A stretch of 64,000 nucleotides of DNA, from contig NZ_CP154351.1 in NCBI RefSeq assembly GCF_039519235.1, forward strand, positions 1,116,001-1,180,000, written 5' to 3'. Below, piece by piece: positions 14,714-38,141 of the stretch; positions within the stretch are counted from its first letter, which is position 1; every line of letters starts with the position of its first letter. Source of the DNA: Micrococcus sp. 2A (GTDB taxonomy: Bacteria; Actinomycetota; Actinomycetes; Actinomycetales; Micrococcaceae). The notes under the pieces were generated by a model that made no database searches, was not told the DNA's origin, and saw only the letters and a program-made list of their open reading frames with translations. The position numbers and the translations under genes are program-made.

Positions 14714-15234
14714 GCCACGCGACGCCCCACCCGGCCGAGCCGGCCGAGACGTCCGGAACCGCCGCGACCGAGGGCGAGCACTTCGGTGCCGAGGCGTGGC
14801 GCCCCGAGCGTGAGACCAAGGCCCAGCGGTCCTGGACGCCCGGTCAACGCCGCCGTCGCCGTTCCACGCGGGCCATGTTCACGTCCGTGGTGCTGACCCT
14901 CGAGTCGGTCGTGATCTTCTTCCTGGGGATGACCCTGTTCGGGCTGAACCGCGGGGAGGAGCACGCCCTGTGGTTCGCGATCGGCTTCTCCGTCCTGGCT
15001 GTCGTCGCACTGCTGACGTGCGCGCTCGTGCAGAGGCCCGTGGGCATCTGGATCGGGTGGGCCATCCAGCTCGTGCTGATCGTGTCCGGGTTCTGGGAGT
15101 ACTCGATGTTCGTGATCGGCCCGCTCTTCGCGCTCACGTGGTGGTACGCCGTGACCAAGGGCCGGGAGATCGACCTCGAGAACGCCCGGCGTGACCGCCT
15201 CGAGGAGGAGTGGGCGGCGGAGCACGGGTCTTGA
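14710..15234 (+). CDS. DUF4233 family membrane protein
   Basis: 174-aa protein with a disordered polar N-terminus (about 55 residues) and then four hydrophobic segments, including LESVVIFFLGMTLFGL and GIWIGWAIQLVLIVSG. DUF4233 genes regularly sit between folC and ndk in actinobacteria. Function is unknown. It is translationally coupled to folC. Confidence 0.8.
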   Translation: MSHATPHPAEPAETSGTAATEGEHFGAEAWRPERETKAQRSWTPGQRRRRRSTRAMFTSVVLTLESVVIFFLGMTLFGLNRGEEHALWFAIGFSVLAVVALLTCALVQRPVGIWIGWAIQLVLIVSGFWEYSMFVIGPLFALTWWYAVTKGREIDLENARRDRLEEEWAAEHGS

Positions 15235-15248
15235 GGCGCGCCGCCCAC

Positions 15249-15254
15249 TAGGGT
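15249..15254 (+). promoter_or_regulatory. ndk -10 box
   Basis: TAGGGT lies 40 bases before the ndk ATG, giving a short leader with its own AAGGAG ribosome site. Confidence 0.5.
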
Positions 15255-27388: not shown

Positions 27389-27456
27389 GGTCGAGTTGCC
27401 AGCGAGGCGAACGCGCCGGAAACGGCGCGTGAACATCGCGGGTGACACCCACATCT

Positions 27457-27532
27457 GGGGGTATGGCGCAGTTGGTAGCGCGTCTGCATGGCATGCAGAA
27501 GGTCAGGGGTTCGAATCCCCTTACCTCCACCA
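27457..27532 (+). tRNA. tRNA-Ala (anticodon GGC), copy 1
   Basis: 76-nt cloverleaf with the acceptor stem GGGGGTA/TACCTCC, an encoded CCA end, and the anticodon stem TCTGC/GCAGA around loop ATGGCAT, giving anticodon GGC. The T arm (GGGG TTCGAAT CCCC) is normal. It is identical in sequence to the copy at 28851-28926. Confidence 0.97.
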
Positions 27533-28681
27533 GTCAGAAGGCCCGGTCCATACGGACCGGGCCTTCGTCGTCGTCGGGCTCCCGTGCGCGGTCGGTGCGG
27601 GGGACACGCCGGGGTACGCGGCGCGCTCCGCCGCCGTGAGGGCGGGTTCCACCGCACGGCCCTCCCGCGCCGAGGCGACGGCGGCCTCGAGCACCGCCAT
27701 CACGGCGACGGCCTGGTCGGGGGTGGCGGCGTCGCCGCTCGGGCGGCCCAGGATCGCGTCGCGCACGCCCGTGTAGGACCGCTGCTGGGCTCCGGTCGGC
27801 GCAGGGACGCGCTCGATGTCCCCCTCCCCGTCGTGCAGGAGGATCGGGTCCGGGTCGACGCCCCAGTCCGCGGCACCGGGGAGCAGACCCGTGCGCAGCT
27901 GAGCCTCCTGCTGATCCGGCAGTTCCTTCACCGCGGTGCCGCGCGTGCCGTGGACCGCGAAGCGCGGGCTGCCGCCGGCCACGAGCATCGACGCCTGCAG
28001 GACCACACGCCGGCCCGGGTACTGCAGCACGCAGTGCGCCCAGTCCTCGACCGGGGCGCCCGGACGCAGGGCCGCGAGGTCGGCGTCCACGAGATCGGGG
28101 ACGCCGAAGAGCAGGAGCGCCTGGTCGACCAGGTGCGGGCCGAGGTCGAACCAGATGCCGCCCCCGGGCACCGCGGCTTCCCGCCAGCGGTCCCGGACGG
28201 TCGGACGGAAGCGGTCGATCCGGGACTCGAGGTGGACGACGTCTCCGAGCCCGCCGGAGCGGACGAGCTCGGCGATGCCCAGGAAGTCGCTGTCGAAGCG
28301 GCGGTTCTGGAACACCCGCAGCACCCGTCCCGTCTCGGACGCGAGGTCGCGCAGCTCCCGCGCCTCGGCGAGACTCAGCGTGAAGGGCTTGTCCACCACC
28401 ACGTGCCTGCCCGCCCTCAGGGCCGTGCGCGCGAGCGTCGTGTGCTGGTCGTTCGGGGCGGCGATCACCACGAGGTCCACGTCGTGGCGAGCCAGGAGCG
28501 CGTCCACGTCGGGCACCACGACGACGTCCGGCAGGTCCGCGTGCACTGCGTCCGGGCGGCTGGAGGCGACATGGGTGAGCGCGAGTCCCTCCGTGGCGTG
28601 GAGCAGGGGGACGTGGAACGTCTTCCCGGCGAACCCATAGCCGATCAGGGCGGTGCGGATCGGTGCGTCAGTGCGGGACAT
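27521..28681 (-). CDS. Gfo/Idh/MocA family oxidoreductase
   Basis: 386-aa NAD(P)-dependent oxidoreductase, probably acting on a sugar or cyclitol; substrate unknown. Rossmann motif GYGFAGKTFHVPLL is N-terminal, DKPFTLS replaces the family EKP, and GGGIWFDLGPHLVDQALLLF is the conserved substrate-domain stretch. AGGAGG 7 bases upstream fixes the ATG at 28681. The last 17 or so residues are encoded antisense to the tRNA-Ala terminator, and the stop codon lies inside the tRNA acceptor stem. Confidence 0.88.
   Translation of the reverse strand: MSRTDAPIRTALIGYGFAGKTFHVPLLHATEGLALTHVASSRPDAVHADLPDVVVVPDVDALLARHDVDLVVIAAPNDQHTTLARTALRAGRHVVVDKPFTLSLAEARELRDLASETGRVLRVFQNRRFDSDFLGIAELVRSGGLGDVVHLESRIDRFRPTVRDRWREAAVPGGGIWFDLGPHLVDQALLLFGVPDLVDADLAALRPGAPVEDWAHCVLQYPGRRVVLQASMLVAGGSPRFAVHGTRGTAVKELPDQQEAQLRTGLLPGAADWGVDPDPILLHDGEGDIERVPAPTGAQQRSYTGVRDAILGRPSGDAATPDQAVAVMAVLEAAVASAREGRAVEPALTAAERAAYPGVSPAPTAHGSPTTTKARSVWTGPSDWWR
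27537..27566. terminator. Terminator of tRNA-Ala copy 1
   Basis: Perfect 13-bp stem (27537-27549 with 27554-27566), loop ATAC. The convergent oxidoreductase reading frame runs through it. Confidence 0.85.
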
Positions 28682-28773
28682 GCAGGACCTCCTGGGCTGG
28701 CGGCGGGCATGGGGGCGTCTCCTGCACGCTAGGCCGTGGGGCCGCGGCGGTCCATCGACGCCGCCCGGCAGGT

Positions 28774-28802
28774 TTGCACGGTTGCCGCAGGCCGGGTATT
28801 CT
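28774..28802 (+). promoter_or_regulatory. Promoter of the second tRNA-Ala gene
   Basis: TTGCAC (28774-28779) and TATTCT (28797-28802) with a 17-base spacer, 48 bases before the tRNA. This is among the best housekeeping promoters in the window. Confidence 0.7.
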
Positions 28803-28850
28803 GTTCAGGTGCTCCGGCCGGTCCGCCGGAAACGGGGGCATCACCCACCT

Positions 28851-28926
28851 GGGGGTATGGCGCAGTTGGTAGCGCGTCTGCATGGCATGCAGAAGGTCAG
28901 GGGTTCGAATCCCCTTACCTCCACCA
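28851..28926 (+). tRNA. tRNA-Ala (anticodon GGC), copy 2; left border of the island
   Basis: Same 76 bases as copy 1, with encoded CCA. Its 3' end and terminator recur, imperfectly, at 38081-38141 without the rest of the tRNA, which marks it as the likely integration site of the accessory island to its right. Confidence 0.97.
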
Positions 28927-28980
28927 GTCAGAAGGCCCGGTCCATATGGACCGGGCCTTCGTCGTCGTGGTGGCGAGCTC
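28920..28980. repeat. Left copy of the tRNA-end direct repeat (putative attL)
   Basis: 61 bases spanning the last 7 bases of tRNA-Ala, its terminator and 20 bases beyond. It matches 38081-38141 at 55 of 61 positions, the first 22 being identical. It probably results from site-specific integration. Confidence 0.6.
28931..28960. terminator. Terminator of tRNA-Ala copy 2
   Basis: Perfect 13-bp stem (28931-28943 with 28948-28960), loop ATAT; same design as after copy 1. Confidence 0.85.
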
Positions 28981-29463
28981 AGCGAGTCGGATCGTCGCCC
29001 TTTCGTCTTCGCTGATCTCGATGCCGTTGGTGAGCGCTTGATTCGCCAGGCGCTTGCCTTGGTGGTTCGTGCGCGCGTAAAGCATGGCGCAATCGGCCAG
29101 CAGGCCGAGGGCCGTGCTGAGTTGTTTGCGTGCTCCGGCGTGGTGGTCGTGTTCGCCGGCGAGGCGGCGGTCGATATCGGCGAGGCCGGTCTGGGTGGCG
29201 CTTAAGGGTGTCGAGGTCGATGGCGTCGGCAAAGTGCGCGGCGAGGAGTTTGTCACTCGCGTTTTGGAGCCGCTGGCGGTTCTCGGTCAGCTCTGCCAGT
29301 TCCTGGGATCGGGAAGCGAGGGGGACGGCAGCGCTGCGCGAATACTGGGGCTCAGGAGGGCCGAGCGGACTGGGGCCGGAGTAGCAGCCGTGGCTGCATA
29401 GGTGCTGGTTCGCGCGGCGGCGAACATAGCCCCAGTCCAGGCCATCGCGGCACCGGGCTGGCG

Positions 29464-29784
29464 CTAACCCTTCAACCGCTCTGCGGGGACGTCTTCGAAA
29501 CCAGCCAAGTACCCGGAGTGCCCGGCATAGCCTGGATACCCGGGGTGGCCCGCATAGCCTGGATATCCCGGGTAACCGGGATACCCCCGGTACGGCTGAC
29601 TAATCCGGGCCACGAGTCGGTTCCTGACGACTGTGCCGAGGTACTCGCCATGCTTGTCAACTGCGTCTGCATCTCCCCACGGGAACCAACCGATCCATTG
29701 ACCGGATTTGTCGAAAAGGAAGCGCGCATCCGGCGACTGGCGAAAGGCGATGAACTCGCCGCGAGTGTTGAAGTAGCACTCCAT
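29464..29784 (-). CDS. Probable 4-fold beta-flower protein with Gly-Tyr-Pro tail
   Basis: 106-aa protein. The first about 65 residues look like short beta-hairpin repeats: YFNTRGEFIAF, RFLFDKSGQWIGWFPWGD, AVDKHGEYLGTVVRNRLV. This pattern fits the recently named beta-flower fold, whose function is unknown. The tail is a low-complexity PGYPGYPGYAGHPGYPGYAG region. An AGAGGAG site sits just before the ATG at 29784. It lies in the low-GC island between the recombinase remnant and the broken NTPase gene, and might be a small effector or partner. Confidence 0.6.
   Translation of the reverse strand: MECYFNTRGEFIAFRQSPDARFLFDKSGQWIGWFPWGDADAVDKHGEYLGTVVRNRLVARISQPYRGYPGYPGYPGYAGHPGYPGYAGHSGYLAGFEDVPAERLKG
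29510..29600. repeat. Short tandem repeats encoding Gly-Tyr-Pro units
   Basis: Repeated 9- to 12-base units (GGATACCCGG-like) that encode the GYP tail of the beta-flower protein. Units are multiples of 3, so expansion keeps the frame. Confidence 0.55.
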
Positions 29785-30118
29785 GGCTCTCCTCTTGAGT
29801 CGTTCGCTGAAGCTGTTACAGCGGCCCATGCTGCAAGTATTACAGCCGCCACCGACAGTCCCTACCCCAGATCGCGGCTGCGTGGCTCCGTGGCGCCAAA
29901 CACGATCAACGGCATGACCACCGGGCGCACATGAACCTAACGTGGCTGGGCGAAAGTTGCCGCCCAGAGCGGCTCGGAGCTCCGTTACGGATGAACCCAT
30001 TCGTAGGCGTGTGGGGCGACGGAACTCGCAAGATGACAACTACACGCTGAGGCGGTGCTCAATTTGGCGTTCTGACGCGCGGGGGAGTTGATCTCGTGGA
30101 TGCGAGCAGGTCTCAGCG
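29785..30118. other. Intergenic stretch without recognisable gene
   Basis: About 330 bases of lower-GC sequence before the beta-flower gene (minus strand). It should hold that gene's promoter, but no convincing -35/-10 pair or RNA gene was found. Confidence 0.4.
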
Positions 30119-30316
30119 TCAGTGGGGCGAGCGAACGTCCTGGAGATAGAGATATCTAGGGTAGTACCCGGCTTGCGCACGTCCGGTGATCGTGCAGGGG
30201 GGACCCGCCTCGTCGTTGATGCAGCGCTCGTAAACTTCAGCCGCGCTGTCAGCCGCCGCCTTCTGCAGCGCGTCGGGCAGCCGCTTCGTCGGTGGGTAAG
30301 TCACGCAGTCTGTCAA
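30119..30316 (-). CDS. Hypothetical small protein or alternative C-terminus
   Basis: 65-codon frame beginning with TTG that overlaps the end of the broken NTPase gene by 68 bases in another frame. Its composition (DALQKAAADSAAEVYERC, YYPRYLYLQDV) looks more protein-like than the very end of the overlapping frame (AAARRAAEGGG). It may be a separate small gene or the true C-terminus of the large protein after a frameshift. Confidence 0.3.
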   Translation of the reverse strand: MTDCVTYPPTKRLPDALQKAAADSAAEVYERCINDEAGPPCTITGRAQAGYYPRYLYLQDVRSPH

Positions 30317-31597
30317 GGTGCAGGACGGCCATTGCGCCCATGAGTTCCTCAGCTTGGCTGTCGAGGGAAAGACCGGCGACTGGCCTGAATATCACTTCGG
30401 ACAAGTACATGGAGACGGTACCTTCCTCCTCGGCCTCTACGTGTTGCTGGAGGAGCGACAGGGAGGCTTGGATGTCGGCTAATTCACGACTCTGCGACTG
30501 GCCTGTGTTGGGCCCCTGCGCATCCGCGCGGATGATGGGGGGTTGCTGGTCGCCTTGTGCTGTGACAGGTTCGGGCAGGCGTCGCATCCTGCGCCGCGCT
30601 GCTTCGTGAGATCGGTGGACGAGTCGCTCAGCGAGTGTCGCTGGAGACGTGGTGTGGTCTAGCAGAAGCAGGCCCGCTGCTTGAGCCCACTCCATTGCTG
30701 TGTCGGGTGAGATGAGTAGAGCCGGGCGTGCAGCGCTGGAACTGAGCTGGTAGCCGAAGCCAAGGGAAACGCGCTGATCCGAGCCGGCTGGGGTGTCGGC
30801 TGTGATTGGGCGGACAGCGTCGAAGACGCACAGAACGACGAGGTGGGGCCCGAGTTGTTCGCGTGCGGCGTCGTCCAGAGTCTCCAGCAACGCAAGCGTG
30901 TCGTCGAAGACGTGCGTTGGCGCCATGACAACCCAACTTCGCGAATCGAGCGCCCACGACGCAGGATTGGGATCTTCGACGAGTTCGTAGGTTACTTCCG
31001 ACACGGGTTCGAGGAGACTCTGCAAGACCGCCTCGGAACGGCTCTGCTCCGCGTCTGTGACTTTCCTCCATATCTCGGTGGCTGAGGGAAGAGGACTTGT
31101 GGCGCTAATGAGTCGTGCCCGTTCCGGATGGCGGTGAAGCGCGATAGCTAGGTCTGCGCTGCGCCGCATCGCGTCACTGAGGTCGTTGGGCAGAACTGAC
31201 CCGCGGCCCTGTAGGAAAGTGCGGGTGTTTCGACGAGCTTGGTCGATCTTCCCTGCGGCCTCCCGCAGAGCGATGGCAATGGCTAAGAGACTTTGGGTAT
31301 TCGTTTCGTCGTCCGAACAAGCATTGTCCAACGCATCTAGGGCGGCGCGTAGGACGCGTGTTGTCTGGTCTTCGGTGCGGTCGGCGTCGTCGTCGAGAGC
31401 GTGTGCGGACGCGGGCCCGGAGCGTGCGGGAAGTGGGGGAGGCTGGAGGGCGCCGAGGCGCCTGCGGAGGTCGGCGAGCTGGGCGCGCCAGGCAACCCGG
31501 CGCCGTTTGTTGTCATGTGGCTTGAACCGGAGCGGTAGCTCTCTGGCTGCAGTTGCCAGGTCGGCTGCGGCACTGATCTGGGCCGTGACCACCTCCG
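30249..31597 (-). pseudogene. C-terminal fragment of a giant nuclease-STAND NTPase gene
   Basis: About 447 codons remain open (from GTG 31592) and end at 30249. There is no recognised domain: mostly alpha-helical, with Ala/Leu-rich stretches, VTYELVEDPNPASWALDS and LVVLCVFDAVRPI. The 5' side is cut by an IS256-family element at 31598. Removing that element and one copy of its 8-bp duplication joins this frame, without a stop, to 33040-33149 and then to the NTPase fragment. It is lower in GC than the core genes. As it stands it lacks its natural start and is probably not expressed as a full protein. Confidence 0.75.
31590..31597. repeat. Target site duplication of IS element 1, left copy
   Basis: CACCTCCG, repeated exactly at 33032-33039 on the other side of the element. 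Confidence 0.85.
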
Positions 31598-33031
31598 GGG
31601 CGTGTCAGATGGTCTGTGTAAGCCGTACCGAGAGGAACGGTAAGAATCATGACCATGACCGACGAGAAGAACCCAGGCGAGCCCTCGGGCCAGGACCTGG
31701 TCGAGCAGCTGAAAGCCTCAGGGCAGCTTGATTCCCTATTCGCGCAGATCGACGCGGGCGGCGTCGAGCTCACCGGTGACGGCGGGTTCGTGCCCGCGCT
31801 GGTCAAGGCCGCGCTCGAGCGGGGCCTGCAGGCCGAGCTGACCAGCCATCTGGGCTACGAGAAGGGCTCGAGCGAGGCGCCGAAGCACGCCAACTCCCGC
31901 AACGGGACCACCCCGAAGACCGTGGAGTCCGAGGTCGGGCCGATCGAGCTGGACGTCCCGCGAGACCGGGGCGGGTCGTTCACCCCGCGCCTGGTGCCCA
32001 AGGGCCAGCGGCGCCTCGGGGGCCTGGATGACATGATCATCAGCCTCTATGCCGGCGGAATGACGATCCGGGACATCCAGCACCACCTGGCCTCCACGAT
32101 CGGCACGGACCTGTCGCACGAGACGATCTCCAACATCACCGACGCCGTGAGCGAAGAGGTCCTGGCGTGGCAGTCGCGGCCGCTGGAGGAGTTCTATCCG
32201 GTGATCTATCTCGACGCAATCCGGATCAAGATCCGAGAGAACAGCCAGGTCCTCAACCGTGCCGCCTACATCGCCGTCGGCGTGGACCTCGAGGGCATCA
32301 AGCACGTGCTGGGGATCTGGGTCCAGGACACCGAGGGCTCGGCGTTCTGGGCCCACGTCTGCGCCGATCTCGCCAACCGGGGCGTGCAGGACGTGCTGAT
32401 CGTGTGCTGCGACGGGCTCAAGGGCCTGCCGGAGGCGATCGAGGCGACGTGGCCGGACTCGATGGTCCAGACCTGCGTGGTTCACCTGATCCGGGCCGCG
32501 ATGCGGTTCGTGGCCTACCAGGACCGCAAGAAGGTCGCCGCCGCGCTGAAGCCGATCTACACTGCCCCCAACGAAGAGACCGCGAGGAAGGCGCTGGCCG
32601 AGTTCGAGGCCTCCGAGCTCGGCACGAAGTACCCGTCTGCAGCCGCGACCTGGGCGAACTCCTGGGAGCGGTTCATCCCGTTCCTGCAGTTCCCACCCAT
32701 GCTCCGCAAGGTCATCTACACGACCAACAGCATCGAGTCGCTGAACTTCCAGCTACGGAAGGTGACCAAGAACCGCGGCCACTTCCCCTCGACCGAGGCG
32801 GCGGTGAAGCTGCTCTGGCTGGCGATCTGCAACATCGAAGACAAACGCGCCGCCGAACGCGCTCGGGACCGGGGCAAACCCGCCGGCCAGCGCAAAGCCC
32901 AGGGCCGGCTCGTCGAAGGCCAGGCCGTCACGAACTGGAAGCAGGCCCTCGCCCAGCTCGCCGCGGCCTACCCCGACCGGATCAACCCCTACCTGTGACC
33001 ACCCCGCTTACACAGACAAGTTGACACGCCC
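31598..33031 (+). mobile_element. Complete IS256-family insertion sequence 1
   Basis: 1,434 bp. The 25-bp terminal inverted repeats (31598-31622 and 33007-33031) begin GGGCGTGTCA and agree at 22 of 25 positions. It is flanked by the 8-bp duplication CACCTCCG and carries one intact transposase. It interrupts the large minus-strand gene. Confidence 0.92.
31649..32998 (+). CDS. IS256 family transposase (element 1)
   Basis: 449-aa DDE transposase catalysing cut-and-copy movement of its own element. VIYLDAIRIKIRE supplies the first Asp, IVCCDGLKGLPEAI the second, and TTNSIESLNFQLRKVTKNR the Glu. The N-terminal part has NSRNGTTPKTV and the GLDDMIISLYAGGMT motif. It is uninterrupted with a good GAGAGGAA ribosome site before the ATG at 31649 (a second ATG follows two codons later), so the element is probably active. 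Confidence 0.95.
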   Translation: MTMTDEKNPGEPSGQDLVEQLKASGQLDSLFAQIDAGGVELTGDGGFVPALVKAALERGLQAELTSHLGYEKGSSEAPKHANSRNGTTPKTVESEVGPIELDVPRDRGGSFTPRLVPKGQRRLGGLDDMIISLYAGGMTIRDIQHHLASTIGTDLSHETISNITDAVSEEVLAWQSRPLEEFYPVIYLDAIRIKIRENSQVLNRAAYIAVGVDLEGIKHVLGIWVQDTEGSAFWAHVCADLANRGVQDVLIVCCDGLKGLPEAIEATWPDSMVQTCVVHLIRAAMRFVAYQDRKKVAAALKPIYTAPNEETARKALAEFEASELGTKYPSAAATWANSWERFIPFLQFPPMLRKVIYTTNSIESLNFQLRKVTKNRGHFPSTEAAVKLLWLAICNIEDKRAAERARDRGKPAGQRKAQGRLVEGQAVTNWKQALAQLAAAYPDRINPYL

Positions 33032-33039
33032 CACCTCCG
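33032..33039. repeat. Target site duplication of IS element 1, right copy
   Basis: CACCTCCG directly after the right inverted repeat. Confidence 0.85.
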
Positions 33040-33149
33040 TCCACGTCTGGGACGAGGTGGCGCGGCGAAGAGCCGCCTGATAGCCAACAGCTTGGCGTAC
33101 GGCAGTACGCTCAGGAAATCTCGCGCGCCGCATGTCCTTATGGCCGGGC
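33040..33149 (-). pseudogene. Internal fragment of the giant NTPase gene between two IS elements
   Basis: About 110 bases of the broken gene stranded between the elements. Read on the minus strand in the continuous frame it gives HKDMRRARFPERTAVRQAV then GYQAALRRATSSQTWTEV. It connects the NTPase fragment (ending DFEPG) to the C-terminal fragment (starting VTAQISAAADL) with no stop codon. Confidence 0.75.
33142..33149. repeat. Target site duplication of IS element 2, left copy
   Basis: GGCCGGGC, repeated exactly at 34564-34571. Confidence 0.8.
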
Positions 33150-34563
33150 AGTTGAGTCCCTGATAGTGGTGTAACCCTCCCCGGCCGCCAACACCGTCCC
33201 CAGCATGGACGCGGTCACCGTGGGAGCCTTCGAGTGAACCTTCCACAGCACTCTCGAAAGGGACATCACCACGATGACCGCTCCTCACATTGTCGACCCT
33301 GAACGCCTGCTACGCGAAGCGATCGGCGAAGCCTCGCCGGACTTGTTGCGCCACCTGCTGCAGACCGTGATCAACGCCCTGCTCAGCGCTGACGCAGACG
33401 CGGTCTGCGGCGCCGAGTACGGCACCGCTTCTGATACCCGCACCGCACAGCGCAACGGGTACCGCCACCGGCCCCTCGACACCCGCGCCGGCACGATCGA
33501 CGTGGCCATCCCGAAACTGCGCGCCGGCACGTACTTCCCAGAGTGGCTGCTCGAGCGACGCAAGCGGGCCGAGTCCGCGTTGATCACGGTCGTCGCCGAC
33601 TGCTACCTCGCTGGGGTCTCCACCCGACGCATGGACAAGCTCGTGCGCCAGCTGGGCATCGACTCGCTCTCGAAGTCCCAGGTCAGCCGGATGGCCGCCG
33701 AGCTGGACGAGCACATCGACGCGTTCCGGCACCGCCCGCTGGGGGATGCCGGCCCGTTCGTGTTCCTCGCCGCGGACGCCCTGACCATGAAGGTTCGCGA
33801 GGGTGGTCGGGTGATCAACGCGGTGGCCATGGTCGCCACCGGCGTCAACGCTGACGGGCGACGTGAGGTACTCGGGCTGCGGGTGGCCACCACGGAGTCA
33901 GGCGCGGCGTGGAACGAGTTCTTCGCTGATCTGGTCGCCCGCGGCCTTCACGGGGTGAGACTGGTGACTTCGGACTCCCACCGTGGCCTGGTCGAAGCCA
34001 TCGCGGCGAACCTGCCCGGGGCCGTGTGGCAGCGGTGCCGCACGCACTATGCCGCGAACCTGATGGCGGTGACCCCGAAGGCCATGTGGCCGGCGGTGAA
34101 GGCCATGCTCCACAGCGTCTACGACCAGCCTGACGGGCCGGCGGTGCACGCCCAGTTCGACCGGCTCTTGGACTACGTGGCCGAGCGGTTGCCCGCCGTG
34201 GCTGGGCACCTCGATGCTGCTCGGGAGGACATCCTCGCGTTCATCTCGTTCCCGAAGGACGTGTGGTCCCAGATCTGGTCGAACAACCCTGCCGAGCGCC
34301 TGAATCGGGAGATCCGGCGCCGCACGGACGCGGTGGGCATCTTCCCGAACCGGGATGCCGTGGTGCGGCTCGTGGGGGCCGTGTTGGCTGAGCAGACGGA
34401 TGAGTGGGCCGAGGGCCGCCGGTACCTCGGTCTCGAGCTGCTGGCCCGCTGCCGCGAGCCCCTCACGCAAGAACCGGGCACCGTGATGGGCACGGAGGTG
34501 ATGCCGGCCCTGGCCTGATTCTCATGCCTCGAAGACGGTTACACCACTTCCAGGGACTTGACC
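33150..34563 (+). mobile_element. Complete IS256-family insertion sequence 2
   Basis: 1,414 bp. The 26-bp imperfect inverted repeats share AGTCCCTG and AGTGGTGTAAC and are flanked by GGCCGGGC duplications. It differs clearly from element 1 and lies only 110 bases from it. It carries one intact transposase. Confidence 0.88.
33274..34518 (+). CDS. IS256 family transposase (element 2, IS1081-like)
   Basis: 414-aa mutator-type DDE transposase. AQRNGYRHRPLDTRAGTIDV near the N-terminus, FLAADALTMKVREGG (first Asp), VTSDSHRGLVEAI (second Asp) and NNPAERLNREIRRRTD (Glu) are all intact. It is most like actinobacterial IS1081-type enzymes, and only distantly like the transposase of element 1. GAAAGGG precedes the ATG. 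Confidence 0.94.
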   Translation: MTAPHIVDPERLLREAIGEASPDLLRHLLQTVINALLSADADAVCGAEYGTASDTRTAQRNGYRHRPLDTRAGTIDVAIPKLRAGTYFPEWLLERRKRAESALITVVADCYLAGVSTRRMDKLVRQLGIDSLSKSQVSRMAAELDEHIDAFRHRPLGDAGPFVFLAADALTMKVREGGRVINAVAMVATGVNADGRREVLGLRVATTESGAAWNEFFADLVARGLHGVRLVTSDSHRGLVEAIAANLPGAVWQRCRTHYAANLMAVTPKAMWPAVKAMLHSVYDQPDGPAVHAQFDRLLDYVAERLPAVAGHLDAAREDILAFISFPKDVWSQIWSNNPAERLNREIRRRTDAVGIFPNRDAVVRLVGAVLAEQTDEWAEGRRYLGLELLARCREPLTQEPGTVMGTEVMPALA

Positions 34564-34571
34564 GGCCGGGC
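34564..34571. repeat. Target site duplication of IS element 2, right copy
   Basis: GGCCGGGC directly after the element. Confidence 0.8.
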
Positions 34572-36595
34572 TCGAAGTCCCGCACCCGGTACGGGACTCC
34601 CGCCGCAGTGACAGTCGTGATCGTGAATCGCTGCAGTTCGGGGCAGGCATCCGCGAGCCGTGTGAGGCAAGCGACAGTGGACTCGTTGAAGGCGTCCTTT
34701 GTGCCTGCTCTCGGTATGTCCCACGGGAGGAGTGGTAGCGGGATTTCGTCGAGGTCTAGGGGCAGCAGTCGCGTGACGCACACGGATGACATGTCTTCAT
34801 CAACGGCGGCGTCGAGAATCGACTGGTCTGCTGCACAAATGAGGCTGACTCGGTTGTCCAGGGGCCCAAGAATCTCAATGGTCTCCTCCTGTGAGAGATG
34901 AGCGTGGCAGACAGCTGCTAGGCGGGACCAGATGGTCGCAGTCCAGATATCGTGCGGTGTTGGAACTCGTTTGAAGAGAGAGCGGAAGAGATCGATGGGA
35001 ACGCTGAGGTGCGGATGGCCAGCTTCTAGGACGCGGATAGCATCGAGCAAATCCGCATCTGTGAGGATGCTGTGGAGCCGTTCACTGTCGATTCCAGTGC
35101 AAGCCGCCTGCAGGGCCGTGTCGTAATCAGATCGCGCCGGCAGTTGATTCGCGATGTTCTTGATGCGACGGGCCATGTTGTCGAACTGCTTCACTCCGAT
35201 CTCGTCGAAGCGTAGATTCTGGTTACGCTGCGAATAGACGAGAGTTGCGAGCATCTCAAGCGGCACACTTGAAGGCCGTGCTCGTTCGAGGATCGGCAGC
35301 GTGGCCCGAACGTAGAGTGCGTTATCGGCGCGCTCGGCACCTTCGAGGAACGCAGCGACGTCACCTGCGCTCTTGCTGTAGATGTTGAGAGAGTGCCCGA
35401 GAGCTTCAACGACTTCGTCCACGCACTTGGGATGAAGTTCGGCGACCCGGCGCAGCATCCATCCCGCCTGCTGAGGATGGATCAAGGCAGCGACTCGCGC
35501 CAGTGTGTTCCCAATCCGAGGGGGAGGGTTGTCGTGAAGCAGGTCGCTGATCGTTGTGGAGCGGAGCTCGTGAATCCCACGCCAGTTGTCGCCGTCGCTG
35601 ACCGCGATGTGCTCATCACGCAACACGCCGAGCGCGTCACCCACGCTTGCGAGTTCCGTGACGACCTGATCAGCAGCCAGCGCAGAGCCAAGGCGATCTG
35701 CGCTCACTGTGAGGCCGAGTGTGTGTGCTGCGGTGACCAGGCGTGCTGCTTCACGCTGGATTCGGCGGTCGGGAGCCTGAAGGCCCGCGACCTGGGTGGC
35801 CAGCACCTGCCGCAACCGTTGCCCTGTGGTCAGCAGAGCGACGTACTCCATGAGCAGGCCTTCGGATCGCTGGAATGCTTCGTCAGGGTCCATGCGGAGT
35901 GGGATGCCCTGCTCGCGCATCCGTTTACCCAACGCCGCAGCCAGGAGGGCTTCGAGTTGCGGTTCCACCACACGGGTGGAGCCCACGAGCAGCGCTGGTG
36001 AGAAGTCCTCAGCGCGCGCGGCACCAAGGAGCAGCACCGCGGGGATCTCACGCAGTAGGGCTGCAGCATGCGGCCATCCCGTGGTCTGCGGTCGGCCGAG
36101 ATCGTCAGCGACGACCATCACCGGTGACGTTTCGCTCGGACGCAGCAGCCGCACGTGCCGGGCAAGCGCTCGTGCGTCGTCCTCGTCCTCGACCCGGTTG
36201 ACTCGCAGAACTCTTGCCGCAGGGATGAGGTCACGGGCAGCGCGCCAGAGAAGCACTGACTTGCCCGCGCCCGAGGGGCCGACAAGCAGAGTGCTTCCCT
36301 CTTCCCTGAGTCCCTCAGCGCATGCGAGCAGTTCACTGGGTCTGGTCACGTCCAGGTTTGCTGCCACGTGTCCTGGGCGTCCGTCAACGCCAAGGTAGAA
36401 GATCCGAGCCGGAACCTCTTCTGCTGCGAGGAAGCTGACAGGCGCGCAGACGCCAGAGGCAACGGCCTCGTCGAGACCGGTCACGTCAACGGCATCTTGG
36501 ACCTCGACAATGATGGCGTCGAGGTCGCTAACCCGTACCCGAGCTGCAGTCTGACTGGTCGCACGTCGCTGATCGCCCGAGGCTCGTGCCAGCAC
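34572..36595 (-). pseudogene. P-loop STAND NTPase fragment of the giant gene
   Basis: About 674 codons in one open frame from near 36595 down to the IS junction. Walker A is LLVGPSGAGKSVLLWRAA (about residue 105) and Walker B VMVVADDLGRP (about 160). About 450 mostly helical residues follow, as in the winged-helix and repeat regions of STAND ATPases. The frame upstream continues the nuclease fragment if one G is restored near 36590. Downstream it ends at DFEPG where IS element 2 entered; the annotated-looking stop beyond lies in the IS. GTG at 36595 is only the first start in this frame, not a convincing native one. Confidence 0.75.
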
Positions 36596-37335
36596 ATCCT
36601 GAGGCGACTGACAGCAATGCCTGCGACGGTGGGATGGACATTCACCGCTTCGGCCAGCAGGGCTTCGCTAGCCTGGCCGATCCGGTAGGGGAGGCGCACA
36701 ACACGGGCGCGGGCAAGGACGCTCAAAGCGTGAACATCGTCGTACCCGCGGGTGACCAGGCCGGCCAGAACCCTTTCCACGCCTCGGCTGGATTGATCGC
36801 TGAGCACGGCGTCCCATCCGGTGAAGGAAAGACCGGACCCGAGCGAACCATCGGTGAGAACAACAATCTCCGCACCCCTCGCGCTCACCTCTGCGTGGGC
36901 AAGGGCCTCGGCGAGCCCCGCGGGGCCCATCTCGCCCTGGCCACCATCGAGTTCCTTCATCTGAACGAAGGTGCGCGTACCGTCGACTGCAACGCAGTCC
37001 GCATCCTCATAACCCTCGGGGATCAGCTCGACGAACGGCAGATGCCCGGCGCGTGATGCGACCAACAAGTACCCGCACACAGCGACTTGCCAGCTAACGC
37101 CAGATATGTTGCGCGCACCTTGGCGGAGGTCGGCCCACAGGTCGTCGAAGTTCATCTCGCGACGCTTCTGGAGCATCGCCTTCTCTCGATCCGTGCCAGG
37201 ATGCGATATCCCCGATAACGCAGATGCGGGCCCGGAGGCATCTGCCTGTGCGGCTGGCGCGACCGACCACCGTGACTTCTGGCTGCGACGATCGGCGCCA
37301 CGGCTGTTCCCTCGCTGGTTCCGCCGATTCCCCAT
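36591..37335 (-). pseudogene. PD-(D/E)XK nuclease-like N-terminal fragment of the giant gene
   Basis: About 248 codons. After a polar, Arg/Ala-rich leader comes NFDDLWADLRQGARNISG, WQVAVCGYLLVAS, VELIPEGYEDADCVAVDG and RTFVQMKEL: the E...ED-D...Q-x-K order expected of a PD-(D/E)XK nuclease such as DUF4297/Cap4-type domains. It continues through LSVLARARVVRLPYRIGQ to VSRLR, where the frame breaks; beyond this point the frame reads unconvincing residues to 36481. ATG 37335, 37176 or 37155 could be the start; none has a clear ribosome site. Confidence 0.65.
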
Positions 37336-37399
37336 AGAGACATTGTGCCCGGCACCTGCCGTAGGCACTCGAAAGATCGGCGTCCTCGGCGCGCGAGCC

Positions 37400-37577
37400 C
37401 AACCGCCCCGACGGCCGCCTTCAGCATCGCGGGCCCTGTCAAGTACTTTCCGCGTCCACGACGACGAGGGCGGTCAGTGAGGTCGAACCCGGCGAGGCGC
37501 AACGTATTTCGGCGCATGTTGAACCTATCGGCAAACTCGCATGTCGAGCTGCTGGCTTCGTAATCCTCGATCAGCAC
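37400..37577 (-). pseudogene. Recombinase-like helix-turn-helix remnant
   Basis: Minus-strand frame starting VLIEDYEASSSTCEFADRF then NMRRNTLRLAGFDLTDRPRR. This is the pattern of the C-terminal HTH of serine recombinases (sequence-reading helix NMRRNTLR), but a few residues seem missing and the frame then runs into Arg-rich nonsense. Probably a decayed piece. Confidence 0.35.
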
Positions 37578-37627
37578 GACCGGGCCTCACGTCAGGGGAA
37601 CTGGAACTCGGTGGCTGGTGGTGCTCT

Positions 37628-37894
37628 TCAGTGACGGGCTTGCTGCGCCTTCATGACTGTTCCGCGGCCGTGCGTGTCGCGCATCATGACACCGGCGGCG
37701 ATCAAGTGCGTGCGGACTGTCCCCGCCGTGTAACCGAACCTGTCGCCCACGCGCTCCAGTGAAGCCCCTTCCTCATACATGGCACACATCAGCCGAATCT
37801 TGCTGGTCGATGGTAAGTGGTTACGGAGGACGACACCGCGTTCCCGAAGGAGACGAGAGAGTCGCTCATGCCCAAGACCGACCTGTCGGGCCAC
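37628..37894 (-). CDS. HTH-containing protein, possibly truncated
   Basis: 88 codons from GTG 37894, with two helix-turn-helix-like segments: VARQVGLGHERLSRLLRERG and AMYEEGASLERVGDRFGYTA followed by GTVRTHLIAAGV. The frame stays open for about 40 codons further upstream without a start codon, so it is likely the C-terminal end of a larger, broken DNA-binding protein. It lies 190 bases from the right-hand tRNA-end repeat. Function not recognised. Confidence 0.45.
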   Translation of the reverse strand: MARQVGLGHERLSRLLRERGVVLRNHLPSTSKIRLMCAMYEEGASLERVGDRFGYTAGTVRTHLIAAGVMMRDTHGRGTVMKAQQARH

Positions 37895-38080
37895 GACTTT
37901 CCGAGACCCGCCCGCAGCGTAGGCGGCTTCCGCTCCTTGAAGGACGTCTCGGATGCTCGCGGCGCCTGCTGCGGTTGGTGTCTCCGGCGGTGCGTCCTAT
38001 GCCTTCTCGCGCGGATCGACCGGTGCACTCGCACCATCTGAATCACCGGCGGGGCGAGTTTCCACAAGCCTCCCGCTTGG

Positions 38081-38141
38081 TCCACCAGTCAGAAGGCCCG
38101 GTTCATTTGGACCGGGCCTTCGTCGTTGTGGCGGCCGGCTC
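38081..38141. repeat. Right copy of the tRNA-end direct repeat (putative attR)
   Basis: Begins with the last 7 bases of tRNA-Ala (TCCACCA) and contains its terminator hairpin, but the bases before it are not tRNA. 55 of 61 positions match 28920-28980. The sequence to its right is high-GC core. Confidence 0.6.

Follow-up and report, generated by a model that had tools for sequence, protein, structure and literature searches.

The best structural counterpart of the gene reported here is Avs3 (AVAST type 3; PDB 8dgc, 2,028 residues), in which an N-terminal Cap4-type nuclease precedes a central NTPase of the STAND class (signal transduction ATPases with numerous domains) and a large C-terminal half, where a tetratricopeptide repeat sensor binds the phage large terminase. 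As described in the available text of one report, the STAND part of Avs3 draws its nuclease domains together once the target is recognised (PMC12198126, citing Gao et al. 2022). Avs5 (SIR2-STAND; PDB 9jap, 9nc9) carries SIR2 as its effector and, according to the available text of another report, an nSTAND3 module (PMC12931631), while the Cap4, LmuA, HamA and HerA-associated DUF4297 nucleases are separate or SAVED-joined. We analyzed a 64,000-nucleotide stretch of the Micrococcus sp. 2A genome (hereafter the window), in which a gene of about 1,400 codons on the minus strand (30249-37332) is present as four pieces, A to D. Its family shares the N-terminal Cap4-type nuclease, the central STAND NTPase and the large C-terminal half with Avs3, and the nuclease fold and motif with the Cap4 group. 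Unlike in the Cap4 group, the nuclease is fused to a STAND NTPase; unlike in Avs5, the effector is a nuclease rather than SIR2 and the NTPase is assigned to nSTAND_NTPase5; and most members, at about 1,300-1,450 residues, are shorter than Avs3. We consider it likely that a single-chain nuclease-STAND immune receptor was encoded here and that its gene, imported on a 9.2-kb island at a tRNA-Ala gene, was recently inactivated.

One gene in four pieces and its intact relatives

Three lesions separate the pieces, namely two insertions of IS256-family insertion sequence (IS) elements and one frameshift (Table 1). The initial annotation of this DNA had joined the fragments into one frame of about 1,400 codons by removing both elements and restoring one base near 36590, and had called for an uninterrupted orthologue across both IS junctions. 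Two such orthologues were found, and they bear out the reconstruction. In Tessaracoccus caeni, an unbroken frame of 1,418 codons (L036:4733-8986) runs without a stop, and its ungapped DNA identity to the window is 98.0% for piece A (733 bases), 97.2% for B, 95.5% for C and 96.3% for D. The second emerged from an order-wide search (two matches among 395 other genomes) as a 1,403-codon open frame in genome G428, 89% identical to B; this frame matches P0001, a Dermabacter vaginalis entry named "hypothetical protein" (protein identity of 85%, 89%, 95% and 82% for A, B, C and D, respectively). The reading frame shifts between A and B in the window, but not in either relative, and programmed frameshifting at this point was ruled out, as intact relatives encode one continuous frame. 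The window gene is no longer functional, because its C-terminal half is cut twice and its nuclease is out of frame with its NTPase. The locus is a young pseudogene, which as such is ordinary; the interest rests with the intact family.

Table 1. Coordinates of the island borders, gene pieces and IS elements within the window
Feature	Position	Strand	Remark
tRNA-Ala(GGC), island integration site	28851-28926	+	ARAGORN
Left 61-bp repeat (tRNA 3' end and terminator), island border	28920-28980	+	Empty site in congeners G006 and G008
106-aa open reading frame (ORF) with collagen-like GYP repeats	29467-29784	-	Also T. caeni cargo (94%)
Piece D, C-terminal (presumed sensor) part	30249-31597	-	
Target duplication of IS element 1, CACCTCCG	31590-31597 and 33032-33039	.	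Exact 8 bp
IS element 1, IS256 family	31598-33031	+	Transposase 31649-32998
Piece C, 110 bases between both IS elements	33040-33149	-	
Target duplication of IS element 2, GGCCGGGC	33142-33149 and 34564-34571	.	Exact 8 bp
IS element 2, IS256 family	33150-34563	+	Transposase 33274-34518
Piece B, STAND NTPase (Walker A and B motifs, presumed winged-helix region) and beginning of C-terminal half	34572-36595	-	
Piece A, Cap4/LmuA-type nuclease domain	36481-37332	-	Family sequence stops at frameshift near 36600
Upstream ORF with helix-turn-helix matches	37634-37996	-	T. caeni 85%; D. vaginalis 34%, degenerate
Right 61-bp repeat copy, island border	38081-38141	+	

The boundaries that the initial annotation gave for the two IS elements proved exact, each with its 8-bp duplication. 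Both inserts also encode Mutator-type transposases, assigned to the IS256 family by NCBIfam (E = 2.9e-123 for element 1 and 4.3e-98 for element 2), and end in imperfect terminal inverted repeats. The window's genome holds four full copies of element 1 at about 100% identity, and two full copies of element 2 at about 100% together with 11 full or partial matches at 77-83%. Given these near-identical copies, both insertions are probably recent. M. luteus genomes are reported to carry 159-315 insertion sequences (PMC7890812), so IS damage as such is ordinary there.

A protein database search with the D. vaginalis frame returned 200 proteins at E <= 1e-5 among 7,994 scored. Among the 120 homologues listed, 112 matched A, B and D (BLASTP, E <= 1e-3), and 107 matched all four pieces, in identical order in every case (107/107). 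P0002, which clusters 42 metagenome sequences, was the best of those listed, with identities of 94%, 94%, 97% and 90% to A, B, C and D. A scan of genome contigs yielded 11 loci, with T. caeni ranked first; the Glycomyces copy (L045) is short, at 1,030 codons. Matches were also found in 12 plasmid records, each less than 60% identical, and none in phage collections.

Domain architecture and predicted folds

Both the predicted fold and the catalytic motif (Cap4/DUF4297 PD-(D/E)XK) place the N-terminal domain with the Cap4/LmuA-type nucleases, and a weak Pfam match to Cap4_nuclease was present in two relatives. The central part has the features of a STAND protein: a P-loop NTPase bearing both Walker motifs (A and B), followed by helical and presumed winged-helix parts, with a predicted fold resembling Avs3 and Avs5. 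The best Foldseek match was Avs3 (E = 1.8e-14), although the TM score over the whole chain was just 0.18, and a profile search of PDB sequences did not return Avs3. The C-terminal half is large (800 residues), fast-evolving and confidently predicted in its fold; no clear PDB match was found for it. The family joins an effector and a switch of known kinds to a presumed sensor half that is unmatched.

Two proteins of alphaproteobacterial plasmids, AKO98800.1 (1,272 aa) and WP_038496253.1 (1,279 aa), both show an nSTAND_NTPase5 match and the nuclease motif, and AKO98800.1 alone also matches Cap4_nuclease, below the cut-off. They differ from the window family in being only about 20% identical overall. 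Because piece B aligns with them just over its first half, the C-terminal half appears to have diverged or been swapped. No PADLOC system model (PADLOC-DB 2.0.0) spans any of the 22 members scanned, and the ten PADLOC families matched by these members (E <= 0.01) include no Avs models, which we take to be part of the library. Since PADLOC-DB 2.0.0, the one defence catalogue searched, did not recognise the whole protein in the members scanned, the family is apparently uncatalogued.

The initial annotation had described the domain order as that of STAND anti-phage proteins. The nuclease and STAND folds are indeed predicted and their motifs are present, and by analogy we infer a plausible anti-phage role and, more broadly, a defence function for the family. 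In intact relatives, the C-terminal half would probably sense a product of a phage or another invader, upon which ATP binding would cause the STAND part to oligomerise. The N-terminal nuclease domains, brought together as in Avs3, would then cut DNA, and the infected cell would die or the invader would be destroyed. The intact, near-identical T. caeni copy makes the family directly testable, and a C-terminal half with no clear counterpart among solved structures could represent a new way of sensing an invader.

An island of probable recent import

The gene lies within a 9.2-kb island bounded by the 61-bp repeats. In the congeners G006 and G008, both flanks are conserved (93-95% identity in the longest stretches), with a single repeat and the island core absent. 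The eight remaining genomes of the genus are uninformative on the empty site, because their flank matches are short or at most 68% identical. Piece D had no match at E <= 1e-5 in any of the 10 genus genomes, and piece B had none in 98 other relatives. Without the IS elements, the island has a G+C content of 63.7%, versus 72.0% outside. A second tRNA-Ala(GGC) gene is located nearby (two genes 1,394 bp apart, 27439-28968), and the pair seems to predate the island, as like copies occur in the same area of G006 and G008.

Nearly the entire island, except for the IS elements, is common to T. caeni (window 29324-38086 against L036 4014-12827), in stretches of 95-97% identity, a point that the initial annotation had not noted. 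Downstream of its own copy of the gene, T. caeni carries two ISL3-type elements; it belongs to a different order from the window's bacterium. While the island is 95-97% identical, the DprA proteins of the two genomes share only 48% identity over 237 residues, so the island appears to have moved recently between distant bacteria. The window offers a view of an immune-type gene shortly after its arrival and shortly after its loss, and, as an intact sister element exists for comparison, it is useful for studying the cost of such genes.

Neighbourhoods of relatives and possible recurrent loss

We read 12 genomic loci (D. vaginalis and the 11 from the genome-contig scan, with genes called by a simple ORF rule) and found a defence-type gene nearby in six of them: type I restriction genes in D. 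vaginalis, PDC-S28 in T. caeni and Kribbella, TIR in an uncultured Nocardioides, SIR2 in Goekera and NACHT in Aeromicrobium. Neighbours were partly scanned as a pool rather than singly. In this pool (132 of 136 picked neighbours of 11 loci), matches to Lamassu, ThsA, ShosA and Dsr2 models were detected that are not assignable to individual loci, and the Pfam families listed (25 of 87) were mostly ordinary metabolic, transport, regulatory or transposase families. A tRNA gene lies within 2.5 kb of the family gene in 4 of 11 loci scanned (D. vaginalis, N. acrostichi, Propionicimonas and Goekera; Cellulomonas L043 left out). In Janibacter sp. Soil728 (L038:3525-14029), the family gene adjoins a pair of TniQ genes together with a Mu-type transposase, an arrangement resembling Tn7-like cargo.

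Broken copies were also observed outside the window. On the Arthrobacter sp. ERGS1:01 plasmid NZ_CP012477 (L004:9296-15254), a copy annotated as a hypothetical protein is split by an IS21 element (genes L004:12840-14845), with a C-terminal remainder at about 14925-15254. On Sphingopyxis indica pMC4 (L005:7449-11773), a copy annotated as "dsDNA nuclease domain-containing protein" ends after about 607 matched residues with IS21 genes just beyond, and no C-terminal remainder was found in the 17 kb examined. IS-associated breakage was thus present in 3 of the 19 loci read as DNA (the window, D. vaginalis, G425, the 11 from the genome-contig scan and five plasmid loci), a count without a baseline from other genes that is suggestive of repeated IS-linked loss. 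A broader proposal, which we consider less likely than not, is that of an uncatalogued mobile receptor family with a new type of sensor, which is spread across Actinobacteria, has distant relatives on plasmids of Alphaproteobacteria and is repeatedly silenced by IS elements after arrival (twice by IS256 in the window, and by IS21 within the Arthrobacter copy and next to the cut-off Sphingopyxis copy), as if it were costly.

Alternative explanations

The broken STAND protein may instead have served the mobile element itself, as a regulator, by keeping out rival elements or in plasmid defence, rather than anti-phage immunity. The copies on tRNA islands, the divergent plasmid matches, the setting of the Janibacter gene and the lack of matches in phage collections are in keeping with such a role. 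However, the neighbours also include the restriction, TIR, SIR2, NACHT and PDC-S28 genes, anti-phage receptors provide the nearest fold matches across the longest spans, and defence between elements could work by the same mechanism anyway; we therefore regard this explanation as unlikely, though the strongest of the alternatives. It is less probable still that the frameshift reflects a sequencing error, with the IS elements alone having broken the gene. The frameshift is small and is known from the assembly only, but that assembly is a single contig of 99.95% completeness, and the gene is interrupted either way.

Retained activity of a fragment, such as a free nuclease piece or an NTPase piece acting as a decoy, would agree with the nuclease and Walker motifs, which are unbroken within the pieces, and with the absence of internal stops across the 1,401 codons compared, apart from the gene's own terminal stop. 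The ratio of nonsynonymous to synonymous differences (pN/pS) relative to T. caeni was 0.40, 0.30, 0.24 and 0.53 for A, B, C and D, and the corresponding substitution ratio (dN/dS) relative to D. vaginalis was 0.41, 0.25 and 0.44 for A, B and D. Judging from these sequence comparisons, the gene was probably under purifying selection over most of the compared history and was then broken late by the three lesions. The loss is too young to separate maintenance from lag, piece A continues past the frameshift into an unrelated frame, and the Avs3 nuclease is activated via its STAND part, as the available text of PMC12198126 describes, all of which makes a working fragment very improbable. Finally, although a mechanical ORF listing shows the pieces as separate ORFs, the notion of separate genes whose frames join by chance is refuted by the intact orthologues, given that all four pieces form one chain in the same order in 107 of the 120 listed homologues and that B, C and D correspond to consecutive bases in T. 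caeni (L036 5510-7530, 7531-7640 and 7641-8989) with nothing between.

Additional large genes adjoin the family gene in some relatives. At L037:14340-18329, a 1,330-aa ORF next to it matched nothing in Pfam or PADLOC within the cut-offs applied, and BLAST did not link it to any of the 120 listed homologues. In Aeromicrobium (L042:9872-17546) and on a Marinovum plasmid (L007:7479-15660), a large NACHT-type gene directly follows the nuclease-STAND gene, which suggests that the two act as paired receptors.
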